Assembly (NCBI GenBank): GCA_017994695.1
Contig: JAGOKF010000014.1
Location: 1-62,019, forward strand
Direction: 5' to 3'
Length of the DNA stretch: 62,019 nt
From: Myxococcota bacterium
GTDB lineage: Bacteria; Myxococcota_A; UBA9042; DTJE01
Shown here: positions 18,371 to 53,695 of the stretch, in pieces
How the letters are laid out: each line of letters starts with the position of its first letter
Numbering within the stretch: position 1 is the first letter of the stretch
Program-made: the position numbers and the translations under genes
The notes under the pieces: generated by a model
Databases searched by the model: none
What the model saw: only the letters and a program-made list of their open reading frames with translations
Told to the model about the DNA's origin: nothing

Positions 18371-19129
18371 ATGCGGTTGCTGGCGGCACTCCTGGCAGGG
18401 GTCGAAGGCTTCGGGAAGGCCCTGATCCTGCTGTGGGAGGGGCTGTTCCTGGCGTTCCGGCCGCCCTGGCGCTGGCGCCTGCTGCTCCAGCAGATGGAGT
18501 TCATCGGGGCGGGATCCCTCTTCATCGTGCTGCTGACAGGCGTCTTCACGGGGATGGTCTTCGCGGTCCAGACCATCCACACCTTCCGGCTCTTCAACGC
18601 GGAGACCCTGGTGGGGTCGGTGGTCTCCCTGGCCTTGATGCGGGAACTGGCGCCGGTGCTCACGGCCCTGATGGTGACGGGGCGCGTGGGATCGGCGATT
18701 GCCACCGAGATCGGGACGATGGTGGTCACGGAGCAGGTGGATGCCCTCTCGGCGATGGCGGTGCACCCGGTGCAGTACCTGGTGACGCCGCGCCTGCTGG
18801 CGGCGGTGGTGATGCTCCCGGTGCTGACGGCGTTCTGCGACCTGGTGGGCATCGGGGGCGCCTACTACGTCAGCGTGTACTTGATGGGAGTGGACGGGGG
18901 GATGTTCCTGGACAAGATCCGGTTGTATGCCGACTCCTGGGACGTGGTCTCCGGGCTGATCAAGGCGGCGGTCTTCGGCCTGATTCTGGCCCTGGTGGGC
19001 TGCCACAAGGGGCTCGGAGCGACCCAGGGAGCCCGGGGGGTCGGCGTCGCGACCACCCAGAGCGTGGTGCTGTCGTCGATCCTGATCCTTGTGAGCGACT
19101 ACTTCCTGACCCTCCTGCTGTACCGGTGA
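18371..19129 (+). CDS. mlaE: MlaE-family ABC permease
   Basis: It is the inner-membrane permease of a phospholipid-transport (Mla-type) ABC system. The 252-residue product has the family hallmarks: E/QM..IG..S, FTGMVFAVQ, RELAPVLTALMVTGRVGSA, and IATEIGTM, with about five membrane segments. The start at ATG 18371 lies 20 nt after an extended -10. The ATPase (mlaF), the MCE protein (mlaD) and other Mla partners are normally adjacent but are not here; the next gene is unrelated. It must rely on partners elsewhere or act with another ATPase. Confidence 0.9.
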   Translation: MRLLAALLAGVEGFGKALILLWEGLFLAFRPPWRWRLLLQQMEFIGAGSLFIVLLTGVFTGMVFAVQTIHTFRLFNAETLVGSVVSLALMRELAPVLTALMVTGRVGSAIATEIGTMVVTEQVDALSAMAVHPVQYLVTPRLLAAVVMLPVLTAFCDLVGIGGAYYVSVYLMGVDGGMFLDKIRLYADSWDVVSGLIKAAVFGLILALVGCHKGLGATQGARGVGVATTQSVVLSSILILVSDYFLTLLLYR

Positions 19130-19220
19130 ACGTTCCCGGGCGCAGGGGGACGCCGGGGCTGGAAAGGCCCCGGTGGCTCGGCTATCCTTTCGAGCGCTTG
19201 GAAAGGGGTTCAGGAAACCG

Positions 19221-22200
19221 ATGGATGCCCGCAGGTCGAGTTGGTGGTGGATCGGATGCCTGCTGATCGCGGCCTGCGGCGGGGGCGGGGGAGAGGAACT
19301 CCCGGCGCGGATGGACATCCAGTACCCGGAAGACGCCGGGGACCCGGGAATGGGGATCCCGGACCCCGGGCGGGATCCAGGCCAGGACCTCTGGGAGGCG
19401 AGTCCCCCGGGGGACCTGCCGACTCCGGAGTGCACGCCCGCGACCGTCCGGACGGACTGCCAGCAGACCTGTCGCGACCTGGGCCCGTGCCAGCAGTGCA
19501 TCTGCGATCTGAACGACCAGGGGGGCACCTGCAAGGTGATCTCCCGGCCGGACCAGTCGGCCTGCGACGACGGGGACCCCTGCACGGACCCCGATCGCTG
19601 CCAGGACGGCGCCTGCGTGCCGGGGGAGGCGCTCTGCCAGTGTTCCCGGGACGACGACTGCCGTCTCTTCGACGACGAGGACCTCTGCAACGGGCGGATG
19701 GTCTGCGACAGGCGCCGGTTCCCGTTCACCTGCGTGCTGGATCCGGCCTCGGTGGTCCAGTGCTCTTCCGCCGAGGATACGGCCTGCCGGGTCAATCGCT
19801 GCGACCCCGCCCTGGGCCTCTGCCAGATGACCTCCGTGCCGGAGGGCGAGTCCTGCCTGCTGCCCGATCCCTGCGTGACCCGCGCGGAGTGCCTCCAGGG
19901 GGAGTGCACGGCCCGGGAGCGCCGGGACTGCGAGGACGGAAACCTCTGCACCACGGACGGCTGCGATCCGGGCCTGGGATGCACCCATGTGGACAACGAG
20001 GAGGTCTGCGAGGACGGGGACCCCTGCACCGTCGAGGACCGGTGCAGCCGGGGAACGTGCCGGTCCGGCCGCCCGGCCCCGTGCGACGACGGGGATCCCT
20101 GCAACGGCATCGAGTCCTGTGACCGCTCCGAGGGGTGCGTTCCCGGGACCCCCCTGGACTGCAACGACCGGAACGCCTGCACCTCCGATTCGTGCGATCC
20201 GGCGGCCGGGGGATGCGTCCACGAATGGCTTCCCGATGCCAGCGAGGGGCCGGCCGACGACCCCCGGTGCCTGAACGGCGTGGACGACGATTGCGACGGG
20301 CTGAAGGACTTTCTGGACCCGGACTGCCGGTTCGGGCTCAGCGCCGTGGACCCGGCCGACGGCCCGGAGGTGGGCGGGTTCACCACGACCTGGACCGGCC
20401 AGACCCTGGACCAGGTCGTCGGGGCCCGGGTGGACGGGACGCCGGTGCCCTTCGTGGTGAAGTCCTCGATGTCCCTCCAGGTGACGATGCCGCCTCATGA
20501 TCCAGGGCTGGTGGACGTCTCGATCGAGTCGGCGAAGTTCGTCTTCACGTTGCGCGGCGCGTTCCGGTACGTGTCCCGGGTCGAGGATCCCTCGGTGATC
20601 GGGGCCCTGACGTCGCCCACCGCGCCGGTCGTGATCCGGGAAGGGGAAAGCACTCCTCCGTTGGAAGCCACCGTGAGGATCCCCGGGATCACCGACGGCC
20701 CCTCGCCGGATCCCTCGGCGGTGATCGGGCGGTTCGGGTACGGGCCCCGGGGGAGTCTGCCCTGGGCGTCCACGGGGTGGAGGTGGTTCGGGCCCGCCGC
20801 GGGGACGCCGACGGGGGACGGGGCGCTGCGATTCTCGTCCTACACGGTGCCCCAGACGGGGGGCTACTTCGACCTGGCGGTGCGCTTCAGCCTGGACGGG
20901 GGCCAGTCGTGGATCTACCGGGACACCGTGCCGACCCGGGGAACCTACGACCCGGCTGGCGCGCTGCCGTTCACGGTGATGGGAGTTCCCCGGGCGGGTG
21001 CGGTGGTGATCAACGAAGTCTGCTGGATGGGGTCCAGCGACGACATCACCGACGAGTGGATCGAACTGCGCAACATGACCCCGGCGCCTTTCGAGATCGC
21101 GGGCTGGAAGATCACGGGCATCCGGTATCCATCAGGGGACCTGGTGCTGGGCGGGGAGGGGCAGGTCGTCCGTTCCACGGTGCTGGAACCGGAAGGGTAC
21201 TTCCTGGTCTCCCAGTACGAGGCCGGGCGATCGGCCCTGGCGGTGCTCCCGGACATCGCGGTGGTGCCGGGTACTTCTCCCCTCCGGGGCATGTCCATCC
21301 CCAACAGTCCCCCGAAGACGTGGCAACTGGTGACCCCTGGAGGACTGGTGGTGGACCAGGCGCGGTTCACCGGGACCGCCGGGGTGGACGGCAATCCCCT
21401 GCTGCTGCAACCCGAGCGAACGATGGAACGTCGGGCCACGCCGGGGACGGGCCTCCTGGACGGGGACTGGATGTCGGCCCGGGTGGCCGACGGATTCGAC
21501 GGGGATCCCCGGCAGGCAATGAACCTGGGGACCCCCCGGGGGCCGAACTCGGACATCCCCCTCTGTGCGACCGACGCCGACTGCGCCGGTCGCTGGCCCT
21601 GGGAGACCCTGACGGCCTGCGAGGTCCGGGCCTGCGACCCGGCGCTGGGCCGGTGCCGGATCGCGGCGATTCCCGACGGCGGTGCCTGCGACGACGGCCT
21701 GTTCTGCACCGTCGGGGAGACTTGCCGGTCCGGGGAGTGCGGGAATTCCCTTCCCCGGGACTGTCGAGACGCCGGGCCGGTGTCGGCCTGCACGCTGGAC
21801 CTCTGCGACGAGGAGGCCGACCTCTGCAGGAACCCCTGGAACCCCGAGGCGGTGGAGGGCCCGGCGGGCGATCCCCGCTGTTCCAACGGCGTCGATGACG
21901 ACTGCGACGGCTTCTCCGACGGGCAGGACCTCCAGTGCCGCTTCGTGGTGACCCGGGTCTCCCCCGGGGTGGTCCCCAATACGGGCGGGTGGAGCCTGGC
22001 CCTGGTCGGCGATGCCCTGAACACCGTCCGGAAGGTGCGCATGGGCGATGTGGACTGCCTCTGGAGGCTGGTCAACGACCAGCGCATCGACTTCGACTCG
22101 CCGTCGTTGCCCGGGGTCGGGTTCGTGACGGTGTCGGCCTGGGACGGGGTCGTGGAGGCGAGGCTGACCCAGGCCGTCCGGGTGATCGGACTGGCCTCGG

Positions 22201-22619
22201 GGGTCCTGGCGGGCATCGACCGTCCCACCAGCGACCTCGTCGTCGCGCTGGGAGCCTCGACCCCGCCGATCCACGGGAGGGTGCAGGCCGCCGGGGTGAC
22301 CAGCGGGCCGAATCCCGCGGACCCCGCGACGCTGATCGCGGAGATCGGGATCGGTCCCAAGGGGTTCCTGGAGACCGATCCCTTCCGGGATCCGGGCTGG
22401 ACGTGGTGGCCCGCGGCCTACAACCCCGACTGCCAGGACTGCCCCCGGCTCGGGGTGTACGAGTACCGGGCGTCGATCGTCCCCTCGGCAAGGGGCAACT
22501 ACCTGGTGGCCTTCCGGGTGTCGGTGGACGGGGGAGACCGCTTCCAGTACGGGATGCTCGGGGAACCCAGGGATGCCCCCTGGGATCCCTACCAGACCAT
22601 CATCGTCTCGGTGCAGTAG
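19221..22619 (+). CDS. giant Cys-rich lipoprotein with TIG and lamin-tail domains
   Basis: ATG 19221 (ribosome-binding site CAGGA; possible -10 TATCCT at 19183-19188) encodes 1132 residues with lipobox IAAC (Cys19) and an acidic DPG tether. Residues 75-370 are many Cys pairs in short modules such as ACDDGDPCTDPDRC and CEDGDPCTVEDRC, like EGF-type tandem repeats. An IPT/TIG-like domain follows (about 372-450). A lamin-tail-like domain begins AVVINEVCWMGSS (about 591-700) with EWIELRN. A second Cys-module block and a second TIG-like domain (about 909-990) follow. The two halves look like an internal duplication (ND.CDG.DF and ND.CDGFSDG hinges). A surface adhesive or structural protein is inferred. 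Confidence 0.82.
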   Translation: MDARRSSWWWIGCLLIAACGGGGGEELPARMDIQYPEDAGDPGMGIPDPGRDPGQDLWEASPPGDLPTPECTPATVRTDCQQTCRDLGPCQQCICDLNDQGGTCKVISRPDQSACDDGDPCTDPDRCQDGACVPGEALCQCSRDDDCRLFDDEDLCNGRMVCDRRRFPFTCVLDPASVVQCSSAEDTACRVNRCDPALGLCQMTSVPEGESCLLPDPCVTRAECLQGECTARERRDCEDGNLCTTDGCDPGLGCTHVDNEEVCEDGDPCTVEDRCSRGTCRSGRPAPCDDGDPCNGIESCDRSEGCVPGTPLDCNDRNACTSDSCDPAAGGCVHEWLPDASEGPADDPRCLNGVDDDCDGLKDFLDPDCRFGLSAVDPADGPEVGGFTTTWTGQTLDQVVGARVDGTPVPFVVKSSMSLQVTMPPHDPGLVDVSIESAKFVFTLRGAFRYVSRVEDPSVIGALTSPTAPVVIREGESTPPLEATVRIPGITDGPSPDPSAVIGRFGYGPRGSLPWASTGWRWFGPAAGTPTGDGALRFSSYTVPQTGGYFDLAVRFSLDGGQSWIYRDTVPTRGTYDPAGALPFTVMGVPRAGAVVINEVCWMGSSDDITDEWIELRNMTPAPFEIAGWKITGIRYPSGDLVLGGEGQVVRSTVLEPEGYFLVSQYEAGRSALAVLPDIAVVPGTSPLRGMSIPNSPPKTWQLVTPGGLVVDQARFTGTAGVDGNPLLLQPERTMERRATPGTGLLDGDWMSARVADGFDGDPRQAMNLGTPRGPNSDIPLCATDADCAGRWPWETLTACEVRACDPALGRCRIAAIPDGGACDDGLFCTVGETCRSGECGNSLPRDCRDAGPVSACTLDLCDEEADLCRNPWNPEAVEGPAGDPRCSNGVDDDCDGFSDGQDLQCRFVVTRVSPGVVPNTGGWSLALVGDALNTVRKVRMGDVDCLWRLVNDQRIDFDSPSLPGVGFVTVSAWDGVVEARLTQAVRVIGLASGVLAGIDRPTSDLVVALGASTPPIHGRVQAAGVTSGPNPADPATLIAEIGIGPKGFLETDPFRDPGWTWWPAAYNPDCQDCPRLGVYEYRASIVPSARGNYLVAFRVSVDGGDRFQYGMLGEPRDAPWDPYQTIIVSVQ

Positions 22620-31952: not shown

Positions 31953-32963
31953 TCACGGGCGGAAGACTTGCGTCTCGACGAAGTCGTCGCCCAGTTCTCG
32001 CTTCAGGAATTCCTTGAACCGCTTCTTGATGCGTTCCTCGACCTGCCGGGCCCTCTCCCGGCTGACCCCGAAGCGCTCGCCTACCTCCTGGAGGGTCACC
32101 GGGTCGTCGGAGAGGAGCCGGCGGTCCCAGATGTACCGGTCCCGCTCGTTGTCCAGCGTGGCGCCGAACTCGGCAATCTTGGCCTTCAGCCGGTCGGTGA
32201 TCTCCCGGGCGGACGTCTCCTCCTCCGGGCTGTCGCTCCCGGCCAGCGTGCTCAGCAGGGTGGTCTTGCCCTCGGGGTCCCGGGGGGCGTCCAGGTAGAG
32301 GTCCGGCTGGTCCATCCGGTCCATCATCTCCTGTACCGTCTCCTCGGGGACCGAGAGGTTCTGGGCGATGAGCTTCGCGGTGGGGTCGAACCCCATGTTC
32401 TGGAGGCGCTGCCGCTCCCGGCGCAGGTTGAAGAAGATCTTCCGCTGGGCCTGGGTGGTCCCCAGTTTCACCATCCGGTGATTGTTCAACAGGTAGTAGA
32501 TGATATAGGACCGGATCCAGTACTGGGCATAGTGGGACAGGCGGACCCCCCGGAGGGGATCGAAGTGATTGACCGCCTGCACCAGCCCGATGTTGCCCTC
32601 CTGGATCAGGTCCAGCACCTGTCCCGTGAAGGTCCGGTACTCCAGGGCGATCTTGACCACCAGCCGGAGGTTGGACGACACGAGCAGCGCCGCCAGGCGC
32701 GGGTCCTTCGTCTCGGTGTAGGCCCGGGTCAGCCGCTGCTCTTCTTCCGGCGTCAGCAGCGGATACCTCTGGATGTCCTTGATGTAGCGGTAGAGGAGGT
32801 CGACCCGGCCCTCGGAGTCCGCGGGAACCGGCAAAGATGCCTTTCCGGGGGACGCGGACAGGTCCAGTTCCTCCTCGGATGCGTCGTCTTCCGTGCGGGA
32901 CGGTTCCTGGTCCCGATCCTCGTCTTCGCTCACTCGGTCCTCCTTCGGATCCGGCCGGGTCAT
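31953..32963 (-). CDS. rpoH: heat-shock sigma factor RpoH family
   Basis: The 336-residue product is a group-3 sigma factor. It has an acidic N-terminal extension of about 50 residues, region 2 (LVKIALEYRTFTGQVLDLIQEGNIGLVQAV...FDPLRGVRLSHYAQYWIRSYI, described by landmark), the RpoH-box (QRKIFFNLRR), and region 4 with VTLQEVGERFGVSRERARQVEERI. It probably directs RNA polymerase to stress promoters. It follows degP at 76 nt and has its own vegetative promoter, consistent with combined basal and heat-induced expression. Vertebrate-like differences are not relevant; sigma28 or flagellar roles are unlikely given the RpoH-box. Confidence 0.93.
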   Translation of the reverse strand: MTRPDPKEDRVSEDEDRDQEPSRTEDDASEEELDLSASPGKASLPVPADSEGRVDLLYRYIKDIQRYPLLTPEEEQRLTRAYTETKDPRLAALLVSSNLRLVVKIALEYRTFTGQVLDLIQEGNIGLVQAVNHFDPLRGVRLSHYAQYWIRSYIIYYLLNNHRMVKLGTTQAQRKIFFNLRRERQRLQNMGFDPTAKLIAQNLSVPEETVQEMMDRMDQPDLYLDAPRDPEGKTTLLSTLAGSDSPEEETSAREITDRLKAKIAEFGATLDNERDRYIWDRRLLSDDPVTLQEVGERFGVSRERARQVEERIKKRFKEFLKRELGDDFVETQVFRP

Positions 32964-32984
32964 CGGTCCGTGTCGTTCTGCCCG

Positions 32985-33013
32985 ATCGTAGGATGCGAAC
33001 GGGTTCCGGTCAA
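32985..33013 (-). promoter_or_regulatory. vegetative promoter of rpoH
   Basis: On the minus strand TTGACC (33013-33008) and TACGAT (32990-32985) are separated by 17 nt, 22 nt upstream of the rpoH start. It gives rpoH transcription independent of the upstream degP. Confidence 0.7.
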
Positions 33014-33039
33014 CGCGAACGCGGCGGCGACCCGGGCCG

Positions 33040-34527
33040 TCACGGTTTCTGGACGACCACGTAGAAGTAGTTGCGGCCCCGGAGGATCAGCAGCAGCACC
33101 TGGTCGCCCGAGGCGGTCCGCGAAAGGACCCGCTGGACGTCCTCGATGCTTCCGACCGGCTGCCGGTTCACCTCGAGCAGGATGTCCCCGGGGCGGATGC
33201 CGGTCCCGGCCGCCGGGCCTTCCTCGTCCAGTTCCCGGACCTTCAATCCCTGGCCTTTCGGGAGATCCAGCCGGGCCGCCTCCCGGTCCGTCAGGGGGAC
33301 CAGGTCGAGGCCCAGGTTCCCGGCCTCTGGGGATTCCCCCTTCTCGGAGGGCGATCCGTCCTCGCTCCGCTCGGTGATGGTCGCCCGGATCGTCCGGTCC
33401 TTTCCGTTGCGGCGCACCAGCAGGGAGATCTCCCTTCCAGGTTCCGCCAGCCCGACAATGCGGGTGAGCGTCGTGGGGTCGTTGGTGGGGGTGCCGTCCA
33501 CCGACAGGATGACGTCCCCCCGCTGGAGGCCCGCCTTCTCGGCGGGGCTTCCGGGAAAGACCTGGGACACCAGGACCCCCTGGGACTCCTGGATGCCCAG
33601 GCTCCGGGCGAGTTTCGGGGTCAGTTCCTGGATGCCCACTCCGAGCCAGCCCCGGGCCACCCGGCCCTTCTCGAGCACGTCCCGGACGAACTTCTTGGCC
33701 ATGTTCACCGGAACTGCGAACCCGATGCCCTGGGCCGCGGCGTGGATGGCGGTGTTGATCCCCACGACATTGCCGGCCGAGTCGAAGAGCGGTCCCCCGG
33801 AGTTGCCGGGATTGATGCTGGCGTCGGTCTGGATGAAGTCGTCGAAGGGCCCGGCCCCGATCACCCGGTCCTTCGCCGAGACGATGCCCGCGGTGACCGT
33901 GTGGGAGAGCCCGAAGGGGCTGCCGATGGCGATCACCCAGTCCCCGACCTCCAGGGTGTCCGAGTCCCCCAGGGGCACGACCGGCAGGGCATCCTTCGTG
34001 TCCACCTTCAGCAGCGCCAGGTCGTACCGCTCGTCCTTCCCGACCACCCGGGCCGTCAGTTCCCGTTCCGGTTCGACCAGGCGGACCCGGATCTCGGTCG
34101 CCCCGTCCACCACGTGGTTGTTGGTCAGGATGTAGCCGTCGGCGTTGATGATGAAGCCGGATCCCAGGGAATTCCGCCTCTCCGGCGGCATCTCCCATCG
34201 ATCGCCGAAGAATCGCCGGAAGAGGTCCTCCGGTCCCAGGTCGTAGGGCGAGGAGCCCCGGGGACCCCTGCGGAACAGGCGTTGCCCCGGGACCTCGGTG
34301 GTGGTCGAGATGTTCACGACGGCGGGCTTCAGACGCTTCACCAGCGGTGCGAAGGACGACGCCGGCGAGAATCCCGCGGGGACGGTTGCCGGCGAGGACC
34401 CCGCCTCGGTCCAGATGCGCCCGTTCTTTTCCGCCGCCACGGGGGCCCGGCCGGACCCGCAGAACAGCAGGACCACGGCCGGCAGCACGAGGACGGATGC
34501 CAGGGCCACCTTCTTCCACGTCACCAT
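33040..34527 (-). CDS. degP: periplasmic serine protease DegP/HtrA
   Basis: It degrades misfolded envelope proteins. ATG 34527 (ribosome-binding GGAGGGAAGG) gives 495 residues with a signal peptide (about 5-24), a trypsin-like domain with catalytic His138 (NNHVVDG), Asp169 (RYDLALLKV) and Ser243 (NPGNSGGPL), and two PDZ domains (about 285-375 and 400-490). The trypsin loop near 80-120 is Phe-rich. The minus-strand promoter candidate is of heat-shock type, and rpoH follows downstream, suggesting a stress module. Cysteine pairs are absent. Confidence 0.94.
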   Translation of the reverse strand: MVTWKKVALASVLVLPAVVLLFCGSGRAPVAAEKNGRIWTEAGSSPATVPAGFSPASSFAPLVKRLKPAVVNISTTTEVPGQRLFRRGPRGSSPYDLGPEDLFRRFFGDRWEMPPERRNSLGSGFIINADGYILTNNHVVDGATEIRVRLVEPERELTARVVGKDERYDLALLKVDTKDALPVVPLGDSDTLEVGDWVIAIGSPFGLSHTVTAGIVSAKDRVIGAGPFDDFIQTDASINPGNSGGPLFDSAGNVVGINTAIHAAAQGIGFAVPVNMAKKFVRDVLEKGRVARGWLGVGIQELTPKLARSLGIQESQGVLVSQVFPGSPAEKAGLQRGDVILSVDGTPTNDPTTLTRIVGLAEPGREISLLVRRNGKDRTIRATITERSEDGSPSEKGESPEAGNLGLDLVPLTDREAARLDLPKGQGLKVRELDEEGPAAGTGIRPGDILLEVNRQPVGSIEDVQRVLSRTASGDQVLLLILRGRNYFYVVVQKP

Positions 34528-34575
34528 CCTTCCCTCCTCTCCGGCATGCAGCCGGGTGCGCCCGGACAACCCCCA

Positions 34576-34603
34576 AGATGGGATTTCCATTCCCGAAGGC
34601 AAC
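34576..34603 (-). promoter_or_regulatory. candidate sigma32 (heat-shock) promoter of degP
   Basis: On the minus strand GTTGCCT (34603-34597) and TCCCATCT (34583-34576) are 13 nt apart. The -10 matches the E. coli sigma32 consensus CCCCATnT at 7 of 8 positions; the -35 matches CTTGAAA only in the TTG core. It lies 49 nt before the degP start. Confidence 0.5.
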
Positions 34604-36809: not shown

Positions 36810-38566
36810 CGCTGGCCACCCGGTTCGGGATGGTGGGGAGGCACCTGGCCCGCAGCCGGACCCACCTGGCCTTCGCGGCGGTGGGGCTGGTCGTGGGGTC
36901 GGCGTCCCTGGTGTTCTTCCTGGCCCTGACCGGGGGCATCCGGGAACGGGTGCTGAACCGCCTCTACCCCGTGAACCAGGCGGAACTGCAGCGGGAGATG
37001 GTCCGGGTCTTCGGGCTGGGACTGGAGGTCCCCTCCCGGCTGGACGATGCGGTGCTCTCGGCCCTCCGGGGACTCCCGGGGGTCCAGGGGGTGTGGCCCA
37101 AGCAGAAGAGCCGGTTCCAGGCCATCCTGTGGGGAGGCCGGGAGGTCTTCGGCCGGGACTTCCGGGTGGAGTCGTTCTTCGACGGCATCGACCCGGTGCT
37201 GGTCCGGGAGGAGATCCGCCAGGCGGAACGGGAGGCCTACGGTCCGGAGATCCTGTCGGGCCGGTGCGAGACCGATCGGGACTGCGGGCTTGGCGCCGCC
37301 TGCCGGGGAGGCACCTGCGGTCGCCGGTCCTTCTGGGACCGCTTCCGGGACCCCGGCGGTCATCTTCCCTGCCGCGACGACGAGGGATGCCCGCCGGGGG
37401 AGGCCTGCATCGCCGGCAGCTGCGGCATCCCCTGCGGAAAGGGAGGATGCGGCGAGGGGCGGGTCTGCGACGGGGGGAGGTGCCTGGCCGCCTGCCGGTC
37501 GGACGACGACTGCCTTCCCGGGGAAGCCTGTTCCGACGCGGCCGGGATCCGGGCCTGCCGCCGCCTGGCCTGCCGGCTCGAGAACGTCCAGCAGGTCTTC
37601 TCGGCCGATCCGGAGGTGATCCGGGGATGGGTGGTTTCCCCCGACCCCGGGGTGGGGACGGGCCCCAGGCGATGTCCGGAAGGGACCTTCTGCGCCACCG
37701 GGTCCCTCCGGTCCGTCGAGGGGACCTGCGAGGCCCCCATCCCGGTGATCCTGTCCCCGAGCCTGCTGGAGATCTACAACCGGGTCGTGGCGTCGGCGAT
37801 GGGCATGCAGCCGGTGTCTGGACTGGAGATCCTGCTGGGAGTCCCCTTTTCGATGATCTTCGGAGAGTCCTTCTTCATCGAGGATGCGCCCGTGGACCGG
37901 CGGGTGCTGCGGCGGTGCGTGGTGGTGGGCTTCTCGAACAAGGCCCTGGAGTTCGGCTTCACGGTGCCTCTGGGGGTGGTTGTCCGGGCCAACGCGATGA
38001 TGCGGGGCCGGGAGGGGGCCGCCGAGGCCACCAGCGTCATCCTGGAGACGGCGCGGAACGAGGACCTGGCGGCGGCGGTGGAGGACGCGAAGGTGCTGGG
38101 GCTCGTGCCGGCGCCCCGGAGCGAGGAGGCCCGGAAGGCCTCCCAGGTGCTCCGGATCCTCAGCTGGATCTTCGGGCTGGTCAGCGGCGTGATGCTGATC
38201 GTCTCGTCCATCCACATCACCCACACCTTCCTGATGCTGCTGACCGAGAGGCGCCTGGAGATCGCCGTGTACCGGGCCGTGGGGGCCCGGCTGTCGGACA
38301 TCCGGGCCATGGTCTTCCTGGAGGCGGGCCTGCTGGGGATCTTCGGGGGCCTGGCGGGGACGGGTCTCGCCTGGCTGCTGGCCCAGGGGGTGAACCTGCT
38401 GCCGGGACTGGGCGTGACGGGGCTGGCCGGGGCCTCCCGGCTCTTCAGTTTCTCCCCGGCGGTGCTGCTGGCAGGCGTGGCCTGCGCGGAACTCTTCGCC
38501 CTGGTGGGGGCTTGGCTGCCCGCCCAGCGGGCCGCCCGGATGGACCCGGCCTCGGTCCTGTCCTGA
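36806..38566 (+). CDS. LolE/FtsX-type permease with a 20-Cys inserted domain
   Basis: The 586-residue product has the four-segment topology of LolC/E and MacB permeases: one membrane segment at the N-terminus (about 22-43) and three near the C-terminus (about 460-585). A large periplasmic domain lies between them. Inside that domain, residues 154-308 are a foreign-looking Cys-rich insertion with 20 Cys. It includes four modules of the type C..(D).DC..G.AC..G.C (CETDRDCGLGAACRGGTC, CRDDEGCPPGEACIAGSC, C..GGCGEGRVCDGGRC, CRSDDDCLPGEACSDAAG). The same type of module occurs in lipoproteins of this window. C-terminal TERRLEIAVYRAVGAR is the FtsX hallmark. Coupled by 4-nt overlap to the ATPase. Confidence 0.88.
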   Translation: MTLATRFGMVGRHLARSRTHLAFAAVGLVVGSASLVFFLALTGGIRERVLNRLYPVNQAELQREMVRVFGLGLEVPSRLDDAVLSALRGLPGVQGVWPKQKSRFQAILWGGREVFGRDFRVESFFDGIDPVLVREEIRQAEREAYGPEILSGRCETDRDCGLGAACRGGTCGRRSFWDRFRDPGGHLPCRDDEGCPPGEACIAGSCGIPCGKGGCGEGRVCDGGRCLAACRSDDDCLPGEACSDAAGIRACRRLACRLENVQQVFSADPEVIRGWVVSPDPGVGTGPRRCPEGTFCATGSLRSVEGTCEAPIPVILSPSLLEIYNRVVASAMGMQPVSGLEILLGVPFSMIFGESFFIEDAPVDRRVLRRCVVVGFSNKALEFGFTVPLGVVVRANAMMRGREGAAEATSVILETARNEDLAAAVEDAKVLGLVPAPRSEEARKASQVLRILSWIFGLVSGVMLIVSSIHITHTFLMLLTERRLEIAVYRAVGARLSDIRAMVFLEAGLLGIFGGLAGTGLAWLLAQGVNLLPGLGVTGLAGASRLFSFSPAVLLAGVACAELFALVGAWLPAQRAARMDPASVLS

Positions 38567-40723: not shown

Positions 40724-41467
40724 ATGCGGGGACTCTGGACGGTCGCCTGGGTGCTGGTGCTGGGGGTCGCCTGCTCCGGGTCCGGGAACCGGGCCAACCC
40801 GGACGAGCGATCGAAGTCGGATTACCACTACCGCCTGGCCCGGGGCTACTACGGGGACCGCAACATCGCGATGACCCAGCGGGAACTGCACTTGGCGCTC
40901 CAGGCCGATCCCGGGAACTGGGAGGCCTGGCATCTCCGGGGATTCATGCGCCTCGGACTCCAGGACCCGTCCGGGGCCCTGGCCGATTTCCGGGAAGCGG
41001 TGCGCCTGAAGCCCGATTGCGGCGAGTGCCGGAACAATCTCGCCAGCGCCCTGATCGAACTGGGACGCTACCAGGAGGCCCTGGAGGCGCTCCAGCCGGT
41101 CCTGGAGGATCCCCTCTATCCCACCCCTGCCTTCGCCCACGCCAATGCGGGCTGGGCCCACTACCAGTTGAGAAACCTCCCCGAGGCCCAGCGACACCTG
41201 ACCATGGCCATCTTCCTCGCCCCAAGGATGTGCAAGGCCTTCAACAACCTCGGGATCGTCCATCGGGATCTCGGGAACCTCGCCGACGCGCAGGATTCTT
41301 TCGAGAAGGCCGTCCGGATCTGCCCGAACTACGGAGAGCCCTGGTACCACCTGGGAATCCTTCGCCAGGCGGCAGGGGACGGACCGGGGGCCGAGGAGGC
41401 GTTCCGGAGGTGCATCGAGGCGGCGCCCGACACCCCGCTGGCGAGACGGTGCGAGGCCCGGAAGTAG
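40724..41467 (+). CDS. TPR lipoprotein, PilF/PilW/Tgl-like
   Basis: It is a 247-residue lipoprotein with lipobox GVAC (Cys17). The mature part consists of about six tetratricopeptide repeats (ELHLALQADPGNWEAWHLRG, DFREAVRLKPDCGECRNNLA, HLTMAIFLAPRMCKAFNNLG, SFEKAVRICPNYGEPWYHLG). The overall layout is like PilF/PilW and Myxococcus Tgl, which help assemble the type IV pilus secretin. A TPR adaptor for septal proteins or peptidoglycan enzymes is an alternative. Only two nt separate it from ftsL, inside the division cluster. Gene position between ftsL and ftsI is not standard. Confidence 0.8.
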   Translation: MRGLWTVAWVLVLGVACSGSGNRANPDERSKSDYHYRLARGYYGDRNIAMTQRELHLALQADPGNWEAWHLRGFMRLGLQDPSGALADFREAVRLKPDCGECRNNLASALIELGRYQEALEALQPVLEDPLYPTPAFAHANAGWAHYQLRNLPEAQRHLTMAIFLAPRMCKAFNNLGIVHRDLGNLADAQDSFEKAVRICPNYGEPWYHLGILRQAAGDGPGAEEAFRRCIEAAPDTPLARRCEARK

Positions 41468-51957: not shown

Positions 51958-53280
51958 ATGGCCGGGGGATTCGAACTGGTGCGGGACGATTTCGAGGACC
52001 TGATGGAGGACGTCCAGGAGGAGGCGCGGATCCTGGTGGTGGGGATCGGCAGCGCCGGGGTCAATGCCCTGAACACGATGCTGGAACAGGACGTCCGCGG
52101 CGTGGACTACCTGGCCATCAACACCGACGTGCAGAGCCTCCGCCAGAGCCGGTCGAAGAAGCGGATGCTGTTGCGGACCTCGGGCCGCCAGGGCCTCGGG
52201 ACCGGCGGGAACCCCGTCCTGGGCCGGGAGGCGGCTCTCCAGGCGATGCAGGAACTGGAGGGGATCCTGGCGGACTACGACATGGTGGTGATCGCCACCG
52301 GCTTCGGCGGCGGGACCGGATCCGGGGCCTCCCCGGTCCTGGCCGAGATTGCCTCCCGCCGGAACGTCCTGTCCCTGGCCGTCGTCTGCATGCCGTTCGA
52401 ATGGGAGTGCGCCCGCAAGAAGAAGGTCGCCGAGGACGCCCTGGGAGAGCTGCGGCAGCACGTGGACTCCTACATCCTGATCCCGAACGATCGCATCTAC
52501 TCGGTGGCCGGAGAGGACGTGTCCACCTGGGAGGCCTATGCCCGGATCGACCAGGTGCTCTGCGACACGGTCCGCGGCGTCGTGGAACTGATCACCCGCC
52601 CCGGGTTCATCAACCGGGACTTCCGGGACGTCGAGGCGGTGCTCAGCAAGGCCGGGCGGTGCGTGATCGGGGTCGGGACGGCCACCGGGCCCGACCGGGC
52701 GGTCCACGCCCTGGACCTGGCGGTGAACAACCCCCTCCTCCAGGACTGCTCCATCGAGGGGGCGGACCGGGTGCTGGTCCAGGTGGTCCAGGGGCAGGAC
52801 GGCAAGATGCTGGAACAGAAGGTGATCGGGGAGCGCCTGGCGAAGGCCCTGGGCCGGGAGGGCCAGGTCAACGCGGGCCTCGCCCGGGACGACTCCCTGA
52901 CGGGAAGCATCCGGGTCACCGTGATCGCGTCGGGAATCGACGACATCGAGCCCCTGGACGCCGAGGACGCCCAGGAGGAGGACCCTTCCTGGACTCCCTC
53001 CGAGTCCTGGTCGGGGTCCCGTGGCAGCGGCCAGGGACTCAGCGCGCCCGTGGAAGCGCCCCGGGAGACGCGCCCGAGCATGCTCCGCCACGCCTCCCGT
53101 CGGGGGGCCTCCCGGGACCCCGGGGGCGAGCCGGAGGTGGTGAACGGCGTCGCCTGCCAGTCGGCCCCCTACGGCCTGCCGATCCAGAGCCCCCTGGACG
53201 GGGACAGCGAGTTGTCCGAAATCCCCGCCTACACCCGGATCCCCCGCTGGGAACGCCCCTGGCATCGGAACAAGGAATGA
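51958..53280 (+). CDS. ftsZ: cell-division GTPase FtsZ (diverged motifs)
   Basis: Tubulin-like GTPase forming the division ring. The 440-residue product has ILVVGIGSAGVNALN at the N-terminus and the tubulin signature as GGGTGSG (117-123, normally GGGTGTG). The T7 loop is NRDFRDV (219-225) with both catalytic acidic residues present, and the C-terminal peptide region is SEIPAYTRIP. The linker 330-420 is long and disordered. The preceding motif reads VIATGFGGG and a switch segment is CMPFEWEC where FxFEG is usual. So several otherwise rigid motifs have changed but the catalytic residues remain. The start has AGAGGAGGTGCGCG. It ends the cluster. Confidence 0.93.
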   Translation: MAGGFELVRDDFEDLMEDVQEEARILVVGIGSAGVNALNTMLEQDVRGVDYLAINTDVQSLRQSRSKKRMLLRTSGRQGLGTGGNPVLGREAALQAMQELEGILADYDMVVIATGFGGGTGSGASPVLAEIASRRNVLSLAVVCMPFEWECARKKKVAEDALGELRQHVDSYILIPNDRIYSVAGEDVSTWEAYARIDQVLCDTVRGVVELITRPGFINRDFRDVEAVLSKAGRCVIGVGTATGPDRAVHALDLAVNNPLLQDCSIEGADRVLVQVVQGQDGKMLEQKVIGERLAKALGREGQVNAGLARDDSLTGSIRVTVIASGIDDIEPLDAEDAQEEDPSWTPSESWSGSRGSGQGLSAPVEAPRETRPSMLRHASRRGASRDPGGEPEVVNGVACQSAPYGLPIQSPLDGDSELSEIPAYTRIPRWERPWHRNKE

Positions 53281-53440
53281 ACCGGGAGTGATCCGGGCGT
53301 TCCCAGGACCCCGTTCCCCGCACCCAGAAGACAGAGACCGGGGCCACCGTCCAGACCCTCCCCTCCCCGGGTCCTCAGGCCTTGACCGGAACGACCCGTC
53401 CGGGCCAGGATCGGGTCCATCCCGTCATGGAGGTCGAGCG

Positions 53441-53695
53441 ATGAACGGAAGAAGGAACCGCGTTCGCCGGGTGCTCTGGATGGTCGTCCTGTCTGCTCTG
53501 GCCCTCGGCCACCTTGGATCCGGGTGCGAGCCGAAGTGCGGGGACTCCTGTTCCTCCGACGAGGACTGCGGAGGCGACCTGGTCTGCTACTCGGACCAGT
53601 GCGCCCCGAGGGAATGCCGGGAGAACTGCATGGAATACGGGATCAACATCTGCTATTTCGATCGCGTGACCTGCGACTACCTCCACTGCGACTGA
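53441..53695 (+). CDS. small Cys-rich lipoprotein
   Basis: ATG 53441 (GGAGGTCGAGCG) encodes 84 residues. The signal ends in LGSGC (Cys29). The mature part of about 55 residues has 11 Cys, including a module CGDSCSSDEDCGGDLVCYS in the style of those in the large lipoproteins, and ends CDYLHCD. It is likely disulfide-bonded and surface-exposed. TTGACC at 53382-53387 could be its -35, with CAGGAT after 18 nt, a weak -10. The remaining 160 nt upstream, after ftsZ, holds no gene. Confidence 0.75.
   Translation: MNGRRNRVRRVLWMVVLSALALGHLGSGCEPKCGDSCSSDEDCGGDLVCYSDQCAPRECRENCMEYGINICYFDRVTCDYLHCD

Follow-up and report, generated by a model that had tools for sequence, protein, structure and literature searches.

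A three-gene operon encodes a cysteine-rich permease

The window, by which we mean the whole stretch of 62,019 nucleotides analysed here, contains a tightly coupled three-gene operon for a partner protein, an ABC ATPase and a permease (Table 1), and both of its gene junctions are ATGA overlaps. The initial annotation had placed a LolD-like ATPase and a lipoprotein gene beside the permease, and both descriptions hold. LolD was the best-scoring family for the ATPase (TIGR02211, 222 bits), though the score lies below the cut-off of 307.75, and the partner is probably a lipoprotein, judging by a weak lipobox. Across the named loci the operon has a single permease, with the ATPase on a separate gene rather than fused to it, and the ATPase gene immediately precedes that of the permease in 36 of 36 cases. 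A literature search, largely outside subscription journals, returned no prior description of this operon or of a Cys array in such a permease.

Table 1. Genes of the operon and features of the permease (positions in the window).
Feature	Positions	Strand	Details
Partner, 482 aa	34639-36087	+	N-terminally anchored periplasmic; weak lipobox (C26); TP0453-like predicted fold
ABC ATPase, LolD/MacB type, 241 aa	36084-36809	+	start overlaps partner stop (ATGA)
Permease, MacB/LolCE/FtsX superfamily, 586 aa	36806-38566	+	start overlaps ATPase stop (ATGA)
TM1 helix, residues 18-53	36857-36964	+	predicted structure
Cys-rich periplasmic domain, residues 154-308, 20 Cys	37265-37729	+	sequence, predicted structure
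Module 1, residues 154-171	37265-37318	+	C-x5-C-x5-C-x4-C
Module 2, residues 189-206	37370-37423	+	C-x5-C-x5-C-x4-C
Module 3, residues 210-226	37433-37483	+	C-x4-C-x5-C-x4-C
Module 4, residues 230-251	37493-37558	+	C-x5-C-x5-C-x8-C
Core C4 module	37571-37729	+	C256-x33-C290-x5-C296-x11-C308; directly before strand PIPVILSP; invariant in aligned orthologues
TM2 helix, residues 437-481	38114-38248	+	predicted structure
TM3 helix, residues 496-530	38291-38395	+	predicted structure
TM4 helix, residues 551-577	38456-38536	+	predicted structure

The permease is a paralogue of LolCE

The permease was modelled with AlphaFold2 from 36 aligned sequences (mean pLDDT 85.3, pTM 0.76). The model has four long helices with the Cys domain between the first two, and Pfam detected an FtsX domain in residues 458-581 (57.9 bits, cut-off 25.5); matches to CitMHS, hnRNP_Q_AcD and DUF7107 all fell below the Pfam cut-offs. 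The best Foldseek match was LolE (9rld_E, E 3.7e-16). With the VIA aligner, YtrF, MacB, LolC and LolE tied at Z of about 20-22, and FtsX structures also matched. Because of these ties, we assign the permease by its predicted fold to the MacB/LolCE/FtsX superfamily without favouring LolE.

The first description of the protein as a LolE/FtsX-type permease is therefore right about the fold, since the model has a LolE fold with a periplasmic domain between TM1 and TM2, but not about LolE identity. Against the lolCE equivalog TIGR02212 the permease scored 37.9 bits, far from the cut-off of 362.45, and all 36 family members matched this model weakly (best E 1.8e-21). The same genome encodes LolCE-like permeases elsewhere, none of them above the TIGR02212 cut-off either, and has two LolA-family matches. 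The missed cut-off and the separate LolCE-like genes rule out that the permease is LolE itself; it is a paralogue of LolCE. On contig C64 of G000 (locus L040), a LolE-like permease adjoins LolD-like and BamA-like genes, both identified by eye, and this is probably the genome's canonical Lol locus.

A periplasmic array of four modules and a split core module

In the MacB/LolCE/FtsX superfamily, the stretch between TM1 and TM2 forms the periplasmic domain. The Cys stretch lies between TM1 and TM2 in the permease model, and so is predicted to be periplasmic, as first annotated; a cytoplasmic site is ruled out by the same model. Of the permease's 22 Cys, 20 fall within this 155-residue stretch, whose boundaries and Cys count agree exactly with those given originally. 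They form four C-x4-5-C-x5-C-x4-8-C modules (Cys at 154, 160, 166, 171; 189, 195, 201, 206; 210, 215, 221, 226; and 230, 236, 242, 251) and a fifth, split module (256, 290, 296, 308). Ordinary LolCE-like proteins were said to lack such an array, and three that we inspected in this genome contain 0, 1 and 3 Cys; we know of no Cys array in MacB. When the permease profile was aligned to these three proteins with hhalign, the ends aligned well and the middle poorly, so the point of insertion in LolCE is approximate.

A six-frame spacing search of the window recovered the four modules in the permease, together with Cys modules in the open frames 19110-22616 and 53144-53692. The initial annotation had reported four permease modules of a type seen in lipoproteins of the window; the search found the four, and modules of the same general kind in other proteins of the window. 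The first of these frames has 68 Cys and encodes an 1148-aa protein (19173-22616, + strand) packed with Cys modules; Pfam finds Dicty_CTDC repeats and a TIG domain in it, and LTD below cut-off. The second (+ strand) is a 183-aa open frame without a Pfam match whose 13 Cys have module-like spacing. The permease modules resemble Myxo_Cys_RPT (TIGR04201) and other bacterial C4 repeats in being four-Cys repeats of about 20 residues that are common in the genome. Unlike Myxo_Cys_RPT, they sit inside an ABC permease, and the two permease modules that match this family score 12.4 and 12.8 bits, short of its cut-off of 25.

The partner has a TP0453-like predicted fold

An iterative profile search found the partner in 36 of the 40 named loci (L046-L085), and the other four contigs end before the partner gene. 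Among 17 loci from other classes it was present in 7 and undetected in 10; of three further loci from the class one has it, it was undetected in G013 (same order), and the stretch from G018 starts too near the ATPase to tell. No Pfam family was detected in 32 partner members, and the partner sequence profile gave no match among PDB chains at E up to 1, TP0453 included. The partner model (pLDDT 82.2, pTM 0.82) did match TP0453, an anchored lipoprotein of Treponema pallidum (3k8g-3k8j), with a Foldseek E of 6.6e-6. VIA aligned 218 of 247 residues at 4.8 A (Z 10.1), and the best unrelated chain after it scored a Z of 6.7. The partner is thus predicted to have a TP0453-like fold, although it is nearly twice as long as TP0453 and shares no detectable sequence match with it.

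A review reports that TP0453 lies on the inner face of the outer membrane, and that it is proposed to carry lipids and glycolipids in outer-membrane biogenesis (PMC5421087). With start sites chosen by hand, 17 of 32 partners have a lipobox-like Cys, whereas the aligned Cys is absent in the other 15, many of which begin with a hydrophobic helix. The lipobox Cys or hydrophobic N-terminal helix suggests that the partner works tethered, in the hydrophobic-helix lineages at the inner membrane. Beyond the lipobox column no partner Cys is widely conserved, the next columns reaching 9 and 10 of 32; therefore no disulfide link to the permease is expected, and we rejected a permease-partner disulfide bridge.

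The array is the normal state of its family

We searched 52 class relatives at the protein level and 377 phylum genomes with a profile (E <= 1e-40). A permease orthologue was present in 50 of the 52 class genomes and in 145 of the 377 phylum genomes overall; the two class genomes without a match, G004 and G045, are 82% and 88% complete. Most named records with the permease bear titles of Myxococcota, Myxococcales, Deltaproteobacteria or unnamed proteobacteria; nearly all are MAGs, and a few have doubtful labels. One of these few, a locus titled Klebsiella pneumoniae (L068, CAMDBH010000001.1), has a Myxococcota-type operon. Orthologues in 50 of 52 class genomes rule out that the array is peculiar to this genome. 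The array is the normal state in the permease's own orthologous family, and the word "insertion", used in the initial annotation, is valid relative to LolCE and MacB but not within this family, where the array is a class-wide trait.

Within the array, all 29 aligned orthologues share C256, C290, C296 and C308, which are likewise invariant in a 36-row alignment of the window and the named loci. C154, C171, C189, C195, C201 and C206 are each kept in 27 of 29 orthologues, the Cys from C154 to C206 overall in 26-27 of 29, and a 27-row alignment shows no change at F180, which lies between modules 1 and 2. The conserved Cys columns and the mostly even number of Cys argue that the array is not a product of chance. 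Its size varies: orthologues have 4 to 30 Cys per domain, with 0 to about 6 modules preceding the last four Cys and hence 1 to about 7 units in total. In 20 permeases picked from 95 matching genomes of other Myxococcota classes, 4-8 Cys occupy the same place, directly before a PIPV-like strand.

We built a midpoint-rooted tree of the permease core with the Cys domain removed (48 rows, two partial rows having been dropped). The array-bearing class and the other classes split with full support, and 26 of the 28 class members have at least 14 Cys. The only class rows with fewer than 11 are G003 (8 Cys), which groups with G009 (18-20 Cys, depending on the count; support 100/98), and G006 (4 Cys), which groups with G007 (18 Cys; support 86/59). 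Both lie inside the window's family and still have the ATPase and the partner (loci L056 and L061). The simplest reading is one expansion of the array in the class, followed by two losses or cut-backs in the window's family; because the root is a midpoint one, expansion rather than reduction is only the presumed direction of the deepest change. The array thus looks like an ancestral C4 module, alone or doubled in the other classes, that was multiplied at the level of this class.

Conserved cysteines in a fast-evolving domain

Of 49 homologues, which are related rows and not 49 independent trials, 47 have an even count of domain Cys; the exceptions are G014 (29 Cys) and G033 (21 Cys). Six permease pairs retain Cys at 124 of 125 array positions, and their other array residues were 0.48-0.78 identical compared with 0.76-0.95 in the permease core. 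dN/dS was 0.22-0.31 for the array (five pairs; one further pair was saturated) against 0.07-0.13 for the core (six pairs), and the non-Cys residues of the array change at roughly three times the rate of the core. Two VKOR-family matches were detected in the genome. Because Cys counts are even and Cys is almost never replaced despite its fast-changing surroundings, the array looks like a scaffold of putative disulfides. For the partner and the ATPase, dN/dS was 0.19-0.35 and 0.10-0.21 (three pairs each). The fast rate common to array and partner would fit an interface without showing one.

The main rival to a role for the array is that it is passive filler, a disulfide-stabilised loop that is prone to duplication and deletion, nearly neutral and without a binding partner. 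The range of 4 to 30 Cys between orthologues, the two losses with the operon kept and the fast evolution of non-Cys positions all suit such a loop. However, the array's dN/dS indicates purifying selection, at least 14 Cys persist in most class members of the tree, and F180 does not vary; we therefore regard filler as rather unlikely.

Module counts do not support recognition of Cys-rich lipoproteins

The initial annotation proposed a role for the array in recognising or holding Cys-rich lipoproteins prior to their export, which would involve contacts of like with like between modules. Modules of the same general kind do occur in other proteins of the window, and the genome has 105 Myxo_Cys_RPT-type matches, mostly weak (E up to 10). 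We counted modules in 52 genomes with a DNA pattern for D-C-x2-G-x2-C-x1-3-G-x-C, which catches only one module shape. All 52 genomes, with or without the array, have matches (5 to 57, against 0-6 for a reversed control), including those in which the permease array is lost or nearly so (23 in G006, 16 in G003). Across 28 genomes, with kinship ignored, permease Cys correlated weakly with module count (rho 0.41, p 0.03) and with module density elsewhere in the genome (rho 0.32, p 0.09), but within the window's family the correlation was negative (rho -0.53, p 0.09; 11 genomes, kinship again ignored).

Genome-wide module counts thus do not support a coupling between array and lipoproteins. The poorly kept non-Cys residues are also unlike a conserved recognition surface, and other Myxococcota examined have only 4-8 Cys at this site. 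The proposal is left unsupported, and we consider recognition of this kind quite improbable.

Gene neighbourhoods differ between families

In loci of the window's family that are long enough, and with exceptions, the operon is preceded by a sigma factor and HtrA and followed by MraZ, RsmH, a TPR protein and a PBP. In the window itself, genes for a sigma-70-type factor and an HtrA-type protease (31953-34602, - strand) are divergent from the operon, an arrangement kept in several same-family loci. Within the mraZ-rsmH cluster, the TPR protein gene (40724-41467, + strand) separates a putative ftsL from the PBP gene and is conserved in relatives. Family f6 has, in 12 of its loci, a gene that clusters with apolipoprotein N-acyltransferase (Lnt), 5-8 kb upstream and in the same orientation, and Pfam confirmed this identity in 4 of 4 loci tested; the gene upstream in this family is putatively WecB-like. 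The f6 neighbourhood with Lnt leans, circumstantially, towards lipoprotein or lipid biology.

These neighbourhoods bear on the idea that the system signals as FtsEX does, the ATPase moving the periplasmic domain to control the partner, for example in cell-wall or envelope-stress control, with no transport. FtsX structures match the permease, and the window locus stands beside dcw genes (MraZ, RsmH, PBP transpeptidase), HtrA and a sigma factor. Yet only the window's family retains these neighbours, and f6 has a different neighbourhood, with Lnt. FtsEX-like signalling therefore seems to us very unlikely.

A candidate extraction machine with a proposed disulfide-rigidified arm

We tentatively propose, at somewhat less than an even chance, that the operon encodes a dedicated Lol/MacB-type machine for extracting lipids or lipoproteins, with the array as a rigid docking or spacer module. 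One LolD-like ATPase, one permease of LolE fold and an N-terminally anchored, TP0453-like partner would together make up an extraction machine dedicated to Myxococcota. Two permeases and two ATPases would form the complex, which may lift a lipid-anchored substrate, lipid or lipoprotein, out of the inner membrane's outer leaflet by mechanotransmission and pass it to the partner as acceptor or chaperone. The array would serve as a disulfide-rigidified arm that docks or spaces the partner or another envelope protein, not as a catalytic part, with an arm length that differs between lineages. Lipid or lipoprotein handling is suggested by predicted fold and neighbourhood only, and the substrate is putative. 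G006 has lost the array and G003 nearly all of it, yet both keep the operon; the array is therefore not essential to retention of the machine.

The proposed machine resembles LolCDE and LolDF (LolE 9rld_E; LolF 9w37) in its four-TM permease with a large TM1-TM2 periplasmic domain, its FtsX domain and its separate LolD-like ATPase. It differs from this group in its Cys array, single permease, anchored TP0453-like operon partner and TIGR02212 score, and in a genome that has separate LolCE-like permeases and LolA. MacB (5gko, 5lil, 5nik) has the same permease fold (VIA Z 18-21). A MacAB-like exporter of drugs or peptides, with the partner as an unusual adaptor, would account for the tie between MacB-type and LolCE fold scores and for the set of one ATPase, one permease and an adjoining anchored periplasmic protein. 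But the ATPase is unfused and scores best with LolD, and the partner, without a Pfam match, has a predicted TP0453-like fold rather than that of a MacA-type membrane fusion protein, which makes such an exporter quite unlikely.

MacB, LolCE and FtsX permeases differ mainly in their periplasmic domains, which set partner and substrate. With 1 to about 7 disulfide units and natural losses in one family, the permease offers a ready series for testing the role of that domain. Through the predicted fold of its operon partner, the system is also connected with TP0453, a protein whose function in the syphilis bacterium is still at the stage of a proposal. It is possible, if doubtful, that extraction here follows a further Lol-type route separate from LolCDE-LolA, with a LolE-fold permease, an expandable disulfide arm and a TP0453-like anchored acceptor of lipid or lipoprotein. 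If so, TP0453, an orphan lipoprotein, would gain a transporter-coupled relative, and there would be a class of extraction machines whose docking length is tuned by module number. Of the two halves of the system, the partner may prove the more interesting.
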